A DNA stretch of 64,000 nucleotides, from NCBI RefSeq assembly GCF_014695385.1, contig NZ_JACJOD010000006.1, positions 558,001 to 622,000 of the forward strand. Reading direction: 5' to 3'. Below the pieces are notes generated by a model that saw only the letters and a program-made list of their open reading frames with translations, ran no database searches and was not told the DNA's origin. The position numbers were made by a program, and so were the translations under genes. The stretch is from Trichocoleus sp. FACHB-46. Lineage in GTDB: Bacteria; Cyanobacteriota; Cyanobacteriia; FACHB-46. Positions 41,982 to 50,889 of this stretch are shown here, piece by piece (position 1 is the stretch's first letter; each line of letters begins with the position of its first letter).

Positions 41982-43127
41982 TTAAGAGTGATTGAGAAGC
42001 AAATTTTGCCTTGAGTCAGCTTGACAGTAGCGTTCTGCCAACGCCTCGATCGCTTGCAGCAATTGCGCTTGACTCCAGTTTTGATAAAGAGAAGCTGCGA
42101 TCGCACAACCGCCAGCCCCTACGCCTTCTTTCACATATCCTTGCTCATAAGCTTGGAGCTGTGAGTAGCGAGCTGCTGTAAATTGCAGCTGGGTAGCCAA
42201 AAGCGGGACCGTGCCAATCAGATTGGCTAAGCCTACTGTGTCTCCTGTCGCATCTTCAGCAACCCAGCGAGTTGTGCCTACGACAATCTGCTCTGGTTGC
42301 CATGACAAAGTGTAAGTAGTCGCGATCGCTCGTAACAAAGCATAAACCGCCAACATCTGGGTGCCTCCGGCTAGCATAACGCCACAACTTCGACTAGCCG
42401 CGATCGCCATGCCCGCAACCACAATTTGCATCGGATCGCCTACTGCGGCTACCAACTGAAGCGGGTCAACCTCGGAGTTAACCAAACCCGCTTGCCGTAA
42501 ACCTGCCTGGACAACTTCCCACTTTTGGCTATGGTTGCAGGTAGGATGACTGCTGTTGACTTTGCCAACCGCTGCAAGGCCGAGACCTGTCAAAATGGCT
42601 AAAGCTGTGGTTGTGCCACCCACAACGCATTCTCCCAAAATTAAGTAGCCTTGGGGAACTTGAGCCGCGAGCTGCTGGCCCCAAGCTAATCCTTGCTCCA
42701 GCAGATGTTGAACGACTGGTCGGCTTAAGGCTTGGCCTTGGCTTAAGCATGCCGCAGCAGTCCCCCCCAAATCAACGCAAGGAACTGGGGGGGGGACGGG
42801 TAAACCAGCATTAAATAAGTAAAGTGGAATTGCTTGGGCCTCCACGACAGCCCGTGAAATTAAAACCGGGGATGCACCAGCCTGGAGGGGCGGCAAAGCA
42901 TATTGAGAAGCAGCTTGAGGTCCCTGGTAGAGGAATTCGGCATCAGCGATCGCGGTATAGCGCCGATCTTGTGGGGTAGCACCCGCTGCAGAAATGCCTG
43001 GAATTAGACCCGTGGCTGTAAACCCAAGTACACAGGCGAATAAAGGGCGATGCCGTTGGTAGCGCTGGACCCATTGCTGTCCCAACTGCGCTTGCGTATA
43101 AACCCGAATCATCTCGGCTAGAGACAT
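41982..43127 (-). CDS. cobT: Nicotinate-nucleotide:base phosphoribosyltransferase, CobT family
   Basis: 381-residue cyanobacterial-type CobT that activates the lower-ligand base of cobamides with nicotinate mononucleotide. Key pieces: ECVVGGTTTALAILTGLG, VAAVGDPMQIVVAGMAIAA and SCGVMLAGGTQMLAV, plus catalytic Glu region EGVGAGGCAIAAS. Cyanobacteria make pseudocobalamin, so the base is likely adenine. The ATG overlaps the stop of the upstream DUF2232 gene (TAATG), so the two are coupled. Confidence 0.9.
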   Translation of the reverse strand: MSLAEMIRVYTQAQLGQQWVQRYQRHRPLFACVLGFTATGLIPGISAAGATPQDRRYTAIADAEFLYQGPQAASQYALPPLQAGASPVLISRAVVEAQAIPLYLFNAGLPVPPPVPCVDLGGTAAACLSQGQALSRPVVQHLLEQGLAWGQQLAAQVPQGYLILGECVVGGTTTALAILTGLGLAAVGKVNSSHPTCNHSQKWEVVQAGLRQAGLVNSEVDPLQLVAAVGDPMQIVVAGMAIAASRSCGVMLAGGTQMLAVYALLRAIATTYTLSWQPEQIVVGTTRWVAEDATGDTVGLANLIGTVPLLATQLQFTAARYSQLQAYEQGYVKEGVGAGGCAIAASLYQNWSQAQLLQAIEALAERYCQADSRQNLLLNHS

Positions 43128-43894
43128 TAATCAGCCTCGTAATCCAGAATCACCTGTACCCACTTAGGAGGCGCTGGGATCGGGTTGCCTAAACGCTCTA
43201 AAAGCAACCAAGCCGCTAGATGGACAACAAAAAGATAAACAATATTGTTGATCACAATCATGATCGCCGCGATCGCTTGAACCAACGCTAGTTCAGGCTG
43301 GATCAACAGCCCTAGCTTCACAAAACCCCATTCCACCAATTCTGTAATTTGAGTGGTGATATAAGCCCACAGATCGTCACCCAGCAAAATCGAAACTAGC
43401 CAAATCCGGAAAAAGAAGCCAAAAGTGCCAATAATTGTGCCGATACTGATGGAAACAAACCAGTTTGCTCGCCGCCGCCAAAGCGCTCCTAATTGAACTC
43501 CCAACAGCCCAAAAGGCATTAAAAACAGAATGCTGCGGGTTGGCCCCATGAGGACTGATAGCAGCAACCCAGACACTAGGGCTGACATCCAAGCAGCGCG
43601 GTGTCCCCAGCGCAAGTAGGTCAGGGCAATGGGGACCGGGAAAAAAATCCGTAACAAAGGCCCCATCGGGAAGTAATAGTTGACCAGCCAAATCAGGCTC
43701 GCTGTACTGGCTAAGAAAGCAGTCTCCACCATAGCTAGAGGAGCTGCACTCGTGACTTGCGGTTCAGCTAGAGCCGTTGAAGTATGGAGGTCAGTGGGCC
43801 TAGTGGAGCTTGATTCAGGAGATGCAGATTGAGTAGGACCCGGCTGAGAATCAGGCGGTCTTTCTGAGTGGCGGTCTTCGGAAGAATCACTCAT
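43127..43894 (-). CDS. DUF2232 membrane protein
   Basis: 255 residues from ATG 43894. A 55-residue polar, Ser/Pro-rich N-terminus precedes six or seven hydrophobic segments, including IRILFFPVPIALTYLRWGHR-like PVPIALTYLRW, a feature of the DUF2232 family. The family resembles transporter substrate-binding (S) components of ECF systems and some are predicted vitamin or precursor carriers. The one-base overlap with cobT suggests a link to cobamide metabolism or transport, but that is inference. No known ECF T or A component is nearby. Confidence 0.8.
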   Translation of the reverse strand: MSDSSEDRHSERPPDSQPGPTQSASPESSSTRPTDLHTSTALAEPQVTSAAPLAMVETAFLASTASLIWLVNYYFPMGPLLRIFFPVPIALTYLRWGHRAAWMSALVSGLLLSVLMGPTRSILFLMPFGLLGVQLGALWRRRANWFVSISIGTIIGTFGFFFRIWLVSILLGDDLWAYITTQITELVEWGFVKLGLLIQPELALVQAIAAIMIVINNIVYLFVVHLAAWLLLERLGNPIPAPPKWVQVILDYEAD

Positions 43895-44005
43895 GCACAA
43901 TTAGGTAAGCTAGCAGATCTACTCTATACCTAAACTCTAGACCCCATCCGCTAGTTCGGGTCAGTCTCGGCAGGAGCTAAATTTCCGCGATCGCCCCTGC
44001 CTCAC

Positions 44006-44710
44006 TTAAACCAACAGGCGCTCCAGAGCGTGCATGTCCGGAATGCAGAGAATGTCGCGATCGCGAACAATCAGTTCCTTTTTTTCCAGCTTATTCAAGA
44101 CCCGCGTCACAGTTTCACGCGCTAAACCACTCAAGCTGCTCAGTTCCCGGTGCGGCAAGTTAGGAATCTCAACTCCCTTTTGGCTCCGTTTTCCCTGCCC
44201 CTCAGCTAGAAACAACAAAATATCCGCCACGCGAGAGGTACTGTCAGACTCTCGCAACCGCAACCGTCGATTCACTTGGCGTAGCCGTCGTGCCATCAGC
44301 TGAGCTAGACGAATTCCTGCCGTTGGCTCTGTATGAATTAACTGGACAAAATCTTGGGCTGGCATATTGCCAATCACAGTAGGAGCCAAGGTAATGACAT
44401 CTGTAGATCTAGGTACTTCATCTAGCGGAGCCATTTCTCCAAATAATTCACCCTTACCAAGAATGTTGAGGGTGACCTCTTTGCCATCTAAGTTATAAGT
44501 CCGAATCTTGACCCAACCGTCCAAAATAAAGTAGACAGAACTACCCCAGTCATTTTCTAATAAAATTACTTGGCCAGAAGGATGGCTACGCATGACAACA
44601 TGGGCCGTAGCCTTTTCGACCGTAGCCTCTGGTAAGCCTTCAAAGAAAGGAGCAGAGCGAATTAGTGCAGGGCTAGACTGAGGTTCACGAGGGCTATACC
44701 GATCTTCCAT
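44006..44710 (-). CDS. Crp/Fnr-family transcriptional regulator
   Basis: 234 residues. An N-terminal cyclic-nucleotide-binding beta barrel (about residues 20-130; VILLENDWGSSVYFILDGW, GELFGEMAPLDEVPRSTDV) is followed by a long dimer helix and a winged helix-turn-helix (PHRELSSLSGLARETVTRVLNKLEKKELI). The RSTDV segment keeps the Arg-Ser of cAMP-binding pockets, so ligand binding is possible. It is not NtcA, whose helix differs. Its target genes are not visible here; it is alone with a 940-base upstream region. Confidence 0.92.
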   Translation of the reverse strand: MEDRYSPREPQSSPALIRSAPFFEGLPEATVEKATAHVVMRSHPSGQVILLENDWGSSVYFILDGWVKIRTYNLDGKEVTLNILGKGELFGEMAPLDEVPRSTDVITLAPTVIGNMPAQDFVQLIHTEPTAGIRLAQLMARRLRQVNRRLRLRESDSTSRVADILLFLAEGQGKRSQKGVEIPNLPHRELSSLSGLARETVTRVLNKLEKKELIVRDRDILCIPDMHALERLLV

Positions 44711-45649: not shown

Positions 45650-48600
45650 GTGACTTCTCAGAAGGACCAAGTCCAAACACTAATTGCTGAAATCGATAAA
45701 GTTCTCCAGAAACCTAGTACCCGCTTACCTTGGGTCATGTCTGGAGAGACGACTCAGCAGCGCCGAGTGTTAGAGCGAGTTCGCAGCTATCTAGTCTCTG
45801 TACAACAGCGGATGGTTGCCGATGAACTCTCTCAGACTAGAACCAAATCTAATTTATCGACCTACGATATCCAGTATCAACCCACTCAGGATCCTGAGTA
45901 CGTTAGAGCCCCGATCGCGCCAGTTGGCAATAGCCAAGACGAAGCAGCACGGCAGATTCTCCAGGTTGTAGCTCAAGAAATGGATCATCTGCGCTCCAGC
46001 CTAACGCAGCCCCTACAGGCAGATTTGGAGGCATTACGGCAACAGCGCGAGGCTTTAGTTCAGGAAATTAGACAGTTAGAGTCGCAACGGCATCACTACT
46101 CTCTAGCGCAGCAGCAAGCAAATCAGCAGAAAATCATCGGCGAGTTTCTACAAGTGCTGATGGGGCGTCTGCAAGATAGCTTGACTCAGCAGGTTGCCCA
46201 AACTTTATCGAGTCTACAGTCTCAATCAGTTTATGAAAGTCAGTCTACTGAGGCGATCGCTTTAGGTGGCCGCACGGCTGCTAATCAACCTCTGCTAAAC
46301 CCAGGCCAACGAGTAGAACAACTGCAAGTGTTGCAAGCCCGCTCCGATCAGTTGTTGATGAACCTGGATTCAACTCTGAGCGTGGTGTTTGAAGCCTTAC
46401 AAAGGAATGTCCAAAGCTATGAGGAGTCGCTTTCCACGGGGTTAGAGCGCATGCATGACCTAGGCCAACAAGGGGAAGTCATGTTCACCGCTTTGGTCAG
46501 TCACTTAGCTCAACAATTAGGTCGAGAAGCATCTTCGTTCCTGTACACTATGCCAACCCCAGAGTTGGAGTCGGGTGATGTCACTAGTCCTGAAACTGCG
46601 ACGGCTCCATTAACCTCGATTTCCCCGGCTGCTGAGTCTAGCGCTACACCCACTGCTGTATCCCCTAATGAGTCACGCACTCAAGTTCCGCAGGGAATTA
46701 AACTTGATCCAACCGCTTTAGAGCTACCTTATGCCGGCGCTGAGCTACGACGCGAAAGCCAGCAGCCGTTAGAGCTACCATTGCTGCCAGAGCTGGAGGA
46801 TGACGATTCTCTGAAAGACTTAAACCTAGAGGGCCTTAATCTAGCGGATATTGAGTTGGAGGACGATCTAGACAAGCTGCTGGATGTAAACCTCGATAGC
46901 ATAGGACTGAATCAAGCTGCTACTCCAACCAATGATTTGCCTGATAACTTAACGCCATCAACTCCTCAGCCTACTCTCCAAAGTTCTGCGGCTCCTTCAG
47001 CGAGTCCTGCAAACGTGGTCCCTACCGCTTCGGAGCTAGAGTTTTTGGCACAGCTTGATATTGCTTTGCACGACCAAGATGCTGAAGCGGATGTAGCGGA
47101 TGCCTTGGAGCCAACCACAGGGTTAGAAGATTTAGTTGGAGCAACTTCTAACGCAGAAGCTTTGAGCGCTGAAACTGCGGAGTCCAGCCTGGCAGATGAT
47201 GACCTTTATGACAGTTTGTTTGGTTCTGATGATTTAGTTTCTGGCTTGGAACCACAGGCGGAAATACCAGGCTTGACTTCTGCTGCATCAACACCTGCGG
47301 CGGCTCTGTCAGATACTCCTGAGACCGCTGATCCAAACGTTGCCTTAGCTGAATCTACGGCAGAATTGCAAGCGCGAACGTCACCAGACAGCTCTCTGTC
47401 CTCCCCGGCAACTAGTGATTTGTTCGACGGGCTTGAAGAGGTGGCATCAGAGCCAAGTCCAACTCCTCAGTCTGCGATCGCAGAGGATCTCCCAGCAGAC
47501 TTATTTTCTGCTGCCCCTGAGCCTGATGAAACAGTGACCACCCTAGAAGATTTCTTGTTTGCAGATGCAGTTGAACCAGTCCCTAGTGACGAGAATCCTG
47601 ATCTGCTCAGCTTTGATCTGCCGCCCACGCAGGCGATCGCTCCCAGTGCAGTAGCAAGCTCAGTGACAAGTTCAGCAGCTACAAGTCCAGCGGCTATAGA
47701 CTCTGGAGCACTCGATTCGGAAGCACTAAATTTAGAGGAATTTGGCTCCAGCTTTGCAGATGAGTTGGATGACGCTGATCCGTTAGCTGAATTGGCAGAG
47801 TTGCTGGGTGGGGCTGAGGTCGTGGACGAGCAACCGACTTCTACTCCTCCTATGGGTTCTACTCCGCCTACGGCTCCACCTAGCTCAGTAACATTTGAGG
47901 CTGAAGATGAGCTACTGCTGTCAGAGCGATCGCTACAGGATATCCCATCGCTGAGTGGACCTGATGCTCATGCTCTGGATGATACCTACATACCAGCAGC
48001 GCCGGAAGAATCGCTCATCGCAATTGACGATGACTTAGGCGATGAAACAGCTGATGGCTTGTGGCTGGATGAGAATGTGGTTCAGCAGTTGAATGAAGAC
48101 TTGTTTAGCTTAGAGGATTCCAACCTTTTTCCTGACTATTCAGGGACGGAGGCTATGGAGATAGAGACTAGCAACGTGGGTGATCAACCCCTGCCATCCA
48201 GCGACTCATTGACAGCAAAGAACCCAAACCAGTCGCCTGCGTGGGATACTGCTCAGTTTCCTGAGCCTCAGGACTGGGATCGTCTCACCTTAGAAGACTT
48301 TGCAGAAACCCTACCGGAAACATTGCCTCCCGTGGAGCCTGAAGCGTCTGTGGAGACGGAAGAGACGGAAGAGGTAGAAGCTCTGTCGAATGACCTCTTA
48401 GCTCTTTGGGAGGACGCAGATTTAGAACTACCTGCCGATCCAACGACTGATTTAACCTTGGATGGGTTTGATTTGTTAGCAGATTCCCCTGCGATCGCTC
48501 CTCCTACCTCGTCAGATGTTGCAGTTAAGCCGACGGCTTCTGTGCAGCCTATCGATCACCCACCTACAGAACTGGATACGCAGAACTTAACCATAGATGA

Positions 48601-48718
48601 TGCGTTTATGGATTTTCTGGAAGCTGCGAATTCTCCCATGGCAGAAAGTAGCGATCGCACTCTAACGCCTCCTGAAACGTCGAATCTCCAGTCTGACGAA
48701 AAAAAAAAGATCCAGTAG
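45650..48718 (+). CDS. Acidic coiled-coil protein; upstream part of a frameshifted ORF pair
   Basis: 1022 residues. GTG 45650 follows AGGGG at seven bases. Residues 1-290 are helical with long coiled coils (LTQPLQADLEALRQQREALV, given in part) and many Gln. From about 300 to 1020 the chain is acidic, with Pro/Ser/Thr linkers and at least eight short acidic-hydrophobic motifs such as LYDSLFGSDD, DLFDGLEE, LEDFLFAD, LTLEDFAE and LTIDDAFMDF. The zero frame ends at TAG 48716-48718, two codons after an A10 run, while the -1 frame continues as the Hsp70-like gene. Without the frameshift the product lacks the ATPase. Function unknown. Confidence 0.85.
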   Translation: MTSQKDQVQTLIAEIDKVLQKPSTRLPWVMSGETTQQRRVLERVRSYLVSVQQRMVADELSQTRTKSNLSTYDIQYQPTQDPEYVRAPIAPVGNSQDEAARQILQVVAQEMDHLRSSLTQPLQADLEALRQQREALVQEIRQLESQRHHYSLAQQQANQQKIIGEFLQVLMGRLQDSLTQQVAQTLSSLQSQSVYESQSTEAIALGGRTAANQPLLNPGQRVEQLQVLQARSDQLLMNLDSTLSVVFEALQRNVQSYEESLSTGLERMHDLGQQGEVMFTALVSHLAQQLGREASSFLYTMPTPELESGDVTSPETATAPLTSISPAAESSATPTAVSPNESRTQVPQGIKLDPTALELPYAGAELRRESQQPLELPLLPELEDDDSLKDLNLEGLNLADIELEDDLDKLLDVNLDSIGLNQAATPTNDLPDNLTPSTPQPTLQSSAAPSASPANVVPTASELEFLAQLDIALHDQDAEADVADALEPTTGLEDLVGATSNAEALSAETAESSLADDDLYDSLFGSDDLVSGLEPQAEIPGLTSAASTPAAALSDTPETADPNVALAESTAELQARTSPDSSLSSPATSDLFDGLEEVASEPSPTPQSAIAEDLPADLFSAAPEPDETVTTLEDFLFADAVEPVPSDENPDLLSFDLPPTQAIAPSAVASSVTSSAATSPAAIDSGALDSEALNLEEFGSSFADELDDADPLAELAELLGGAEVVDEQPTSTPPMGSTPPTAPPSSVTFEAEDELLLSERSLQDIPSLSGPDAHALDDTYIPAAPEESLIAIDDDLGDETADGLWLDENVVQQLNEDLFSLEDSNLFPDYSGTEAMEIETSNVGDQPLPSSDSLTAKNPNQSPAWDTAQFPEPQDWDRLTLEDFAETLPETLPPVEPEASVETEETEEVEALSNDLLALWEDADLELPADPTTDLTLDGFDLLADSPAIAPPTSSDVAVKPTASVQPIDHPPTELDTQNLTIDDAFMDFLEAANSPMAESSDRTLTPPETSNLQSDEKKKIQ

Positions 48719-48726
48719 AGACACCC
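48699..48726 (+). promoter_or_regulatory. A10 slippery tract with A AAA AAG, candidate frameshift site
   Basis: Ten A residues (48699-48708) then G. In the zero frame the codons are GAA AAA AAA AAG, so the heptamer A AAA AAG (48703-48709) is in the right phase for -1 frameshifting, as in E. coli dnaX. A -1 slip enters the downstream frame at GAT 48709. One extra A by transcriptional slippage gives the same result. A weak stem CACCC/GGGTG begins about 12 bases downstream. A homopolymer error in the sequence is the alternative. Confidence 0.6.
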
Positions 48727-48738
48727 ACATCTGACGGG

Positions 48739-50889
48739 GTGCTAGAGGATCACAACCATTCAGATGAGCTGTTGAACCAAGTATCTCAACCTGCGGGTTT
48801 TAATACCGCAGCAGAAGCTTTCTCTGAAACCGTCCCATTTACTACGCCACCTGTCGTTGAGCCCACCGGATCTGACGATCAAACTTTGCCAGCCCAGCCT
48901 CCAGTCTCAGAAGCTGTAGGAGGGGTGAAGCGGAGTTGGTATTTGGGTATTGATTGCGGTACCACTGGTTTCTCGGCTGTCTTGCTCGATCGCGTTAGTC
49001 AAAAGCTGTATCCGATTTACTGGCGAGAGCGAGCAGGCCTTGAAGCCGAAACTAAATCCTATCGTTTGCCGACCGCCGTCTATTTGCCATCTCAGTCATT
49101 GACGTCTCATGGATTGTCGGAGACTAGGGTTGCGGTGGGTTCGCAAGCAATAGCGCTGGCTTTACGCGATCGCGACACCATAGCCGTTGATACCTTAGCC
49201 TTGCCAGGAGCAACTGAGCTCACACCAGAGTTATTCATCCAAAACATTAAACCGTATCTGAAAGTTGGCATTCCCCATTACGCTACAGCCACCGATAGTT
49301 GGGAACCTGTAATTCAATGGTCTGACTACCGCCAAATTCCTCTCAGTTGGTTACAGCAGGCCTTGCAATCATTGTTGCAAACCCTGAATCCAGTTACTAG
49401 CAACTCCGATGTCGTTTGTGGTGTCAATGGTCTAGATGCCCCCGCTCTCAAGTCCGCTTTGGCTCAGTTAGAAGGGGTAATTCTTGGCTACCCGGCTAAT
49501 TGGCCAGATACCTATAACTTTAATTTGCGAGAAGCAGTCCTAGAAGCCAAATTAGTCTCTCGCCCAGAGCAAATTTTCTTTGTCGAAGATGCGATCGCTG
49601 CTGTCTTGTCGGAGCTGCGTAATCCTAACCGCTCCCAGTGGAAAGGTGGCACCCTGGTGATCAATGCAGGAGCAACCACCAGTGAAATGGTCCTAGTGAA
49701 TCTACCCGACCATCTCCCTGACTTGACCTATAGTGACTTCAGTCTGCGTAGCCTACCCTATGCAGGCAATGTGATTGACCAAGATATTATTTGCCAACTA
49801 CTGCATCCCCAGTGGTTTCGGCAATCTCGCACAGCCAACCGGAGCAATGTCGTAGAGACTCAATGGCACTGGCAGGCAGAAAACTCAGCGTTGGATGGTC
49901 TATCTTGGGATAGCTTAGGGTTAGATACTATACCACTGCCCATTCCCGGCGAACCCGACCTAGAAACTCGTCATCGCCTACAACAACGCTTAGAGAGCTC
50001 ACCCTTAGGCCAAGGGTTGTTGGAAGCCGCTAGGCATCTGAAGCTGATCTTGCAACACGAAGAGCAATTCACGTTTGAGTTGGGTGATCAGCGTTGGATG
50101 ATTATGCGACGGCAATTAGAAAGCCAAGTATTTCTCCCCTTTATCCAGCGTCTGAACCGAGAATTAAATGTTTTGCTAAGCCAGACAGGGCTGCCGATGC
50201 AAGCAATTAATCAGGCAATTTGTACTGGAGGCACTGCTTCTTTGCCTGCGATCGCGCGTTGGCTACGCCAGAAGTTGCCTAATGCCACGATTATTCAAGA
50301 TACTTACCAAGGCGATCGCAGCTTGAATATAGGCGATAAAACTGCTCATTCAGAAGACATTGACGATGTCACAACTTCTAGAGCCGCCGAACCTAAAACC
50401 GCTATTCTGGGCGATCGCTTGGTTTCTTGTAGCCGTGTTGCTTACGGATTAGCAGCGCTGCCGTTGTATCCTCAAGTGCTAGACTTGCCTCGCCAGCAGT
50501 ATGGCGATTATTTCTTGCTTTTAGAGTTATTGCGAGCTTTTCCCTCTCAGCCTGTTTCGATTGCTGGAATTATGCAGCTTTTGGAGCGCCGGGGCATTAA
50601 CACTCATGCTTGTCAGTTACATATTCTGGCGCTGCTGGAGGGGCATTTACCACCAGGTCTAGTGCCCTTAGAGCAAGATAGAAATTGCCTCACAGAATCG
50701 TCGAAACAATATCTGGACGGACATGCTCTAACTGCCGCTCCCCTCTTTTTGAAGGAGGGTAATCAAGTCTATCGCCCGAATCTAGAGCAATGTCGGCGTT
50801 TACAAGAGTACCTGTCTCAAGTGATGGCCAATACCAAACAAACTTTGGAAGAGCCATTTGCAGTTAATTTGAGCTTGGCTGTTGAATAG
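48739..50889 (+). CDS. Hsp70/actin-fold ATPase-like protein; downstream part of the ORF pair
   Basis: If translated alone it would start at GTG 48739 without a ribosome site (716 aa); the same frame is open back to 48697, and no later ATG occurs for about 300 codons. Residues 1-62 are an acidic Pro/Ser tail like that of the upstream ORF. Then comes phosphate-1 motif YLGIDCGTTGFSAVLLD, a connecting VEDAIAAVLSEL helix, a changed phosphate-2 motif INAGATTSEMVLV (NAGATT instead of DxGGGT), and adenosine motif CTGGTASLPAI. The last 150 residues are an extra helical domain. The fold is clear; whether it hydrolyses ATP is not. Continues the 45650 gene in the -1 frame. Confidence 0.85.
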   Translation: MLEDHNHSDELLNQVSQPAGFNTAAEAFSETVPFTTPPVVEPTGSDDQTLPAQPPVSEAVGGVKRSWYLGIDCGTTGFSAVLLDRVSQKLYPIYWRERAGLEAETKSYRLPTAVYLPSQSLTSHGLSETRVAVGSQAIALALRDRDTIAVDTLALPGATELTPELFIQNIKPYLKVGIPHYATATDSWEPVIQWSDYRQIPLSWLQQALQSLLQTLNPVTSNSDVVCGVNGLDAPALKSALAQLEGVILGYPANWPDTYNFNLREAVLEAKLVSRPEQIFFVEDAIAAVLSELRNPNRSQWKGGTLVINAGATTSEMVLVNLPDHLPDLTYSDFSLRSLPYAGNVIDQDIICQLLHPQWFRQSRTANRSNVVETQWHWQAENSALDGLSWDSLGLDTIPLPIPGEPDLETRHRLQQRLESSPLGQGLLEAARHLKLILQHEEQFTFELGDQRWMIMRRQLESQVFLPFIQRLNRELNVLLSQTGLPMQAINQAICTGGTASLPAIARWLRQKLPNATIIQDTYQGDRSLNIGDKTAHSEDIDDVTTSRAAEPKTAILGDRLVSCSRVAYGLAALPLYPQVLDLPRQQYGDYFLLLELLRAFPSQPVSIAGIMQLLERRGINTHACQLHILALLEGHLPPGLVPLEQDRNCLTESSKQYLDGHALTAAPLFLKEGNQVYRPNLEQCRRLQEYLSQVMANTKQTLEEPFAVNLSLAVE

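Follow-up and report, generated by a model that had tools for sequence, protein, structure and literature searches.

How is a gene to be read when its two long open frames meet, out of register, at a run of adenines? The window, by which we mean the whole stretch of 64,000 nucleotides analysed, raises this question at positions 48699-48708 of the forward strand, where a candidate slippage tract of ten A residues (A10) lies in the sequence context G-A10-G. The upstream frame, ORF1 (45650-48718, forward strand), begins with GTG and encodes 1022 amino acids, comprising a helical N-terminal region and an acidic Pro/Ser/Thr linker, which would be the product made without slippage. It reads GAA AAA AAA AAG ATC CAG TAG at the junction and stops two codons past the run, the end of its zero-frame TAG (48716-48718, forward strand) lying 10 nucleotides past it. 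The downstream frame, ORF2, lies in the -1 frame and stays open between 48697 and 50889 of the same strand, with a stretch of 726 codons downstream of A10, and would be reached with one inserted A (A11). The two frames joined amount to 1746 residues, and the heptamer A AAA AAG at the run is in the correct phase for a -1 shift. The original prediction had described the run joining two ORFs, the codons and the stop at the junction, the extent of the -1 frame, the phase of the heptamer and the length of the joined product; all were confirmed from the sequence, the length by arithmetic. It had also expected one continuous frame with either A9 or A11, and this holds for A11, whereas A9 fails and the alternative to adding one A is to remove two (A8).

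Homopolymers are prone to sequencing error, and one answer would be that the run was miscounted in the assembly with the window (6.56 Mb, 92 contigs), or that the strain carries a recent frameshift mutation. Such an error had been kept as an alternative from the start, and it is refuted by the orthologues. Two other species of the genus, G001 (a one-contig genome) and G002, have A10 at the same junction and in the same frame, runs are found in 16 families, and the ATPase part encoded by ORF2 shows a dN/dS of 0.06-0.10 within the genus. Among these three species, the 30 bases on either side of the run (compared ungapped) are 40-60% identical upstream and 43-93% identical downstream, while the run and the frame are unchanged. 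The chance that an error or a recent mutation in the window strain explains the split is practically nil.

Relatives of the ATPase half were present in 34 of 59 genomes and in 212 of the 388 genomes of the class, the window genome being counted in both. From the matches we picked a subset of 111 loci by hand, the window included, which represents 22 family codes and 70 genus codes, with about one or a few loci per genus and one genome per species. The comparison with homologues that had been proposed revealed a conserved split at an A-run: in 60 of the 111 loci, from 16 of the 22 families, a run of A9-A11 separates the coiled-coil half from the ATPase half. These 60 loci consist of 43 clean split loci, 13 loci fused in frame and four with odd frames (G045, G223, G229 and G139), the last of which were set aside, so that 56 clean loci were analysed. 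The 51 loci without an A9-A11 run consist of 31 that are plainly fused, five with separate frames and 15 for which no N-terminal half could be located, owing to contig ends, to a fragment or to membership of family f24, where the search mostly missed the N-terminus. Weaker matches came from 30 further genomes; 26 were checked and 10 had the run, two of them with unresolved frames. In a profile scan with alignment A1, the best 80 of 389 loci, mostly of fused types, were kept, and a run of at least nine occurred in 25 of these best 80, whose genomes partly overlap with the main set. A scan of genome contigs with a single protein found no relative. Because many cyanobacterial families keep the run at the junction, it is, by comparison of the sequences, most likely a built-in slip point.

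Within the assembly with the window, the run is the sole A10 or T10. There are 10 other A9/T9 runs, none of them at a place where two long open frames meet; the one that comes closest has 82 open codons upstream and 334 downstream. Of 48 genomes chosen for carrying the run, 14, among them the window genome, have no A10/T10 besides it. Inside the genes of the loci (555 kb) there are 60 sense runs of A9 or longer and no sense run of T9 or longer; outside these genes (558 kb) there are seven runs of A9 or T9 or longer, both strands counted. Selection for lysine was rejected as the cause of the run, as AAA makes up 52% of the lysine codons in the 60 run-bearing genes and no other Lys-Lys-Lys occurs in them. 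In fused loci without the run, the 240 nucleotides before the ATPase contain a Lys-Lys pair in one locus. Other A10 runs were noticed elsewhere. Two are in frame, one at 1501-1510 of L243 (G146), in a protein with acyl-carrier-like repeats (of polyketide or fatty-acid synthase type by eye), and one at 1501-1510 of L221 (G125), in a protein that by eye is TPR and glycosyltransferase-like; both are possible further slippage sites. A second A10 is present in near-identical, apparently non-coding sequence in L231 and L233 (G256 and G136), from two species of one genus.

Another explanation is that the halves are two separate genes and that translation of ORF2 begins by re-initiation or at an internal start. 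In the window, no ATG comes in the ORF2 frame until 49687, 326 codons past the run, which bears out the claim that there is no ATG for 300 codons. The GTG at 48739 had been described as having no ribosome site, and a simple scan indeed found no SD-like motif for it, nor for TTG 48772 and TTG 48886, which had gone unmentioned. Among the 43 clean split loci, 25 lack an ATG in the ORF2 frame before the ATPase, six have neither ATG, GTG nor TTG there, and seven have an ORF2 start with an SD-like motif; on the other side, an ATG is present somewhere ahead of the ATPase in 18. In 35 of the 43, no more than 16 nucleotides separate the run from the end of the zero-frame stop. Of six species pairs, five have a dN/dS of 0.06-0.12 for the ATPase part and one has 0.35; for ORF1, the values are 0.17-0.25 in the f1, f16 and f3 pairs and 0.45 in the f34 pair. 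Purifying selection acts on the downstream frame, which usually lacks a usable start, and an independent start of ORF2 was rejected on the start-codon counts for most of the split loci, not for all.

Separate genes are nevertheless seen in some lineages. An ATGA overlap of stop and start, with the run absent, occurs in L062, L063, L281 and L288 (genomes G021, G037, G073 and G063), separate frames without the run occur in G359, G165 and G337, and G377 and G357 have an ATG just inside the ATPase frame. The explanation by separate genes leaves the conserved A-run unaccounted for, however, and we consider it very improbable. The ATGA overlap suggests that slippage was replaced by coupled initiation; G050, from the same family, has A9 at the junction, and a scan for SD-like motifs in G021 and G037 detected none at the expected spacing from the ATG. 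In other lineages the halves are joined for good. The f13 loci lack the run and are permanently fused wherever the N-terminal half is on the contig. The gene is also fused in f32, where five of 16 loci keep A10 and, in the 900 nucleotides before the ATPase, the remaining 11 have A-runs of six at most. That 51 of the 111 loci lack a run of nine counts against slippage, and since 31 are fused and five have separate frames, two products made by slippage are not universally needed.

In Escherichia coli dnaX, A AAA AAG drives -1 frameshifting, with a constant direction and stimulatory signals. Ribosomes could likewise slip back one base on this heptamer at the present locus and read into ORF2, and the original prediction had named this precedent. 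The phase of the heptamer in the window agrees with it, A AAA AAG or A AAA AAA is available in many of the loci needing -1, and 33 of the 43 clean split loci need -1, that is, one A inserted. The other 10, however, need +1 (one A removed), and in 13 of the 56 clean loci the halves are fused with the run kept in frame, so that a constant -1 direction was not found among the orthologues. The dnaX-type heptamer, although present in the window, is not conserved as such, and neither is the base after the run, with G at 35, T at 11 and C at 10 of the 56 clean loci; all three codon phases of the run are found among these loci. A quick tree built from the ATPase half of 108 loci shows at least 13 changes of phase and at least 10 changes in whether the run is present. 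As far as the sequences tell, what is kept across the cyanobacteria is the run, not the frame.

This is the pattern looked for in transcriptional slippage: the coding strand has at least nine A or T in a row where the frames meet, the run is kept while its flanks diverge (in 60 of the 111 loci), and the direction of shift varies among orthologues. According to the rule given by Antonov and others (PMC3711429), mixed direction among orthologues indicates transcriptional realignment and a single direction ribosomal frameshifting, so the mixed direction observed here points to a transcriptional rather than a ribosomal shift. In addition, insertions, 80% of them of one base, are described as prevailing in A/T runs during transcription in E. 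coli and Buchnera (PMC5574713), and the excess of loci that need one extra A fits these insertion-rich spectra. In the fused loci with the run outside f32, the frame +1 to the ATPase stops within two codons in all eight of eight, the control median being 10 codons; among the fused f32 loci with the run, it stops within three codons in one of five. In our reading, the early +1 stops in fused run-bearing loci are a remnant of an earlier split state, though they do not prove it.

Signals that would stimulate a ribosomal shift were also sought. An SD-like motif lies within the 19 nucleotides upstream of the run in 10 of the 43 clean split loci (background 0.11 per 13-nucleotide window) and is absent upstream in the window genome (G000), G001 and G002; such motifs are at most weakly enriched. 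Over the 60 nucleotides past the run, the mean folding z was -0.45, with six of 60 loci below -2, compared with -0.12 and nine of 180 in the controls. This mean fold signal is weak, and so is the case for RNA structure as a general stimulator. In favour of a ribosomal shift, nine of 60 loci have a z below -2 over the 70 nucleotides past the run, and there is a hairpin directly 3' of the run in the window (z of -1.78, -2.14 and -2.03) and a similar helix in G002 (z of -1.94). The hairpin of the window extends over 48709-48751 and has the form GAUCC...GGAUC, and the matching place in G002 has GAUCUAG...CUAGAUC. It might stimulate slippage or frameshifting in the window's genus. Since the hairpin comes right after the run and the heptamer is there as well, a ribosomal contribution is possible in the window's species and may exist in its genus. 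As the main mechanism, -1 frameshifting of the dnaX type is unsupported, given three phases, an unconserved following base, 10 loci shifting in the opposite direction, 13 in frame and weak stimulators, and we regard it as improbable. Slippage of the polymerase, for which the original prediction had pointed to Thermus dnaX, fits the mixed phase and direction better.

A homopolymer run is equally the kind of site at which DNA-level phase variation could act, replication slippage changing the length of the A-run and cells switching between the short and the full product. Run length or frame does differ among congeners in six of the 11 genera with at least two run-bearing loci (for example, A11 with +1 in G117 versus A10 with -1 in G257 and G353), two of these six genera involving loci set aside as odd. 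The remaining five genera, however, are uniform in both length and frame (g54, 6/6; g1, 3/3; g3, 3/3; g74, 2/2; g84, 2/2), and this stability in spite of diverged flanks argues against fast switching. The genomic run length may change slowly in the six differing genera, where one genome per species was compared. Phase variation is thus an explanation that we hold to be quite improbable.

Programmed transcriptional slippage at the A10 run, giving a short protein and a 1746-residue ATPase fusion, is the reading that the compared sequences make very likely. RNA polymerase would add or skip A residues while copying the run. The unchanged mRNA would yield the 1022-residue protein of coiled coil and acidic linker, which stops just past the run, and an mRNA with one extra A (A11) would yield the 1746-residue protein, which adds an ATPase of the Hsp70 nucleotide-binding-domain fold. 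At loci with the halves in frame, slippage would produce the shorter product instead. We infer that slippage takes place in the cell and that the cell needs both products. The idea of a coiled-coil and acidic product with and without an ATPase from one gene, as originally put forward, is supported, whereas a ribosomal shift of the dnaX type is not supported as the main mechanism.

The two halves were modelled with AF2. The conserved N-terminal helical region of about 320 amino acids (45650-46609, forward strand; alignment A2, 39 sequences) gave an all-helical model of low confidence (pLDDT 66.7, pTM 0.26), too poor for a fold search. The ATPase domain with a further C-terminal part (48931-50886, forward strand) gave a model with pLDDT 83.4 and pTM 0.87 for the domain, the part past the ATPase being mostly helical in the model. 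Foldseek matched the ATPase model to 5oby, an Hsp70 nucleotide-binding domain, with an E-value of 5e-14, and VIA-align superposed it on 7kzi over 354 residues (Z 23.7, rmsd 2.8). The ATPase half is thus predicted to have the fold of the Hsp70 (DnaK) nucleotide-binding domain. Neither half of the window protein matches a family above cut-off in Pfam or NCBIfam, and the protein does not reach the gathering score of Pfam HSP70; HSP70 matches were obtained for four of 31 aligned relatives, the window included, with E-values up to 0.01 and 0.00095 at best. Our guess is an ATPase acting as a scaffold or in assembly, with slippage setting the ratio of its subunits.

Upstream of the gene, outside the slippage unit, a Crp/Fnr-type regulator gene (44006-44710, reverse strand) is the divergent neighbour; Crp/Fnr models match it below their cut-offs. 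A homologue of it is divergent upstream in 52 of the 111 loci, in 14 families. The region 41982-44710 of the window holds three divergent upstream genes, namely this regulator, one whose protein has no match in NCBIfam, and cobT; homologues of the three flank the gene in 52, 45 and 31 of the 111 loci, respectively. The cobT-like gene has C7 and G9 homopolymers close together at 42762-42795.

Taking all the lineages together, we somewhat favour the view that the run is an old, phase-indifferent slippage switch across the cyanobacteria. Selection would keep A9-A11 and RNA polymerase would set the ratio of protein with and without the ATPase, while the genomic frame would drift among the three phases; lineages without the run would rely either on a fusion made permanent or on two separate genes, which in some cases are coupled. 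One gene would then reach its products by slippage, by permanent fusion or as separate genes. The gene that carries the run is a cellular one, not part of a mobile element, and 16 of the 22 cyanobacterial families examined have kept the run. It points to an uncharacterised protein with two forms, built around the ATPase fold of Hsp70, and opens the way to testing slippage in cyanobacteria. Automatic annotation will probably report the downstream half as a pseudogene or as a gene of its own.

That slippage occurs at A-runs is established; the gene and the breadth of its occurrence are apparently new within the literature searched. The search, which did not extend to supplementary tables, found no report of the gene or of slippage in it, so an earlier listing among the poly-A clusters of PMC3711429 is possible. 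Escherichia coli dnaX shares the A AAA AAG in phase, but its constant direction and stimulators were not found here as conserved features. Closer in kind is dnaX of Thermus thermophilus, in which an A9 run in a cellular gene gives two product lengths by transcriptional slippage at a reported rate of 50% (PMC1088944). Its protein is unrelated to the present one, and its full-length product is in frame and shortened by slippage, whereas here the short product is in frame at most run-bearing loci. Among the cases described in PMC3711429, Chlorobi dnaX with 10 A residues, transposases of IS630 type and magnesium-chelatase genes with A7-A11 (10-63% slippage in E. coli cassettes) likewise have two ORFs joined at an A-run, and the IS630-type transposases share the mixed direction of shift; these are different genes, however, and the transposases belong to mobile elements. 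The same architecture with both directions of shift is found in the tssM genes (PMC4256274). There, slippage makes the long form of tssM1 in Citrobacter rodentium (at A11, 20-25%), where both length forms are needed, and makes the short form of tssM3 in Yersinia pseudotuberculosis, and rates of 15-55% are given for genes of Citrobacter, Yersinia and Shigella. Slippage is described in that paper as uncommon among tssM genes, whereas the run reported here is present in 16 cyanobacterial families.
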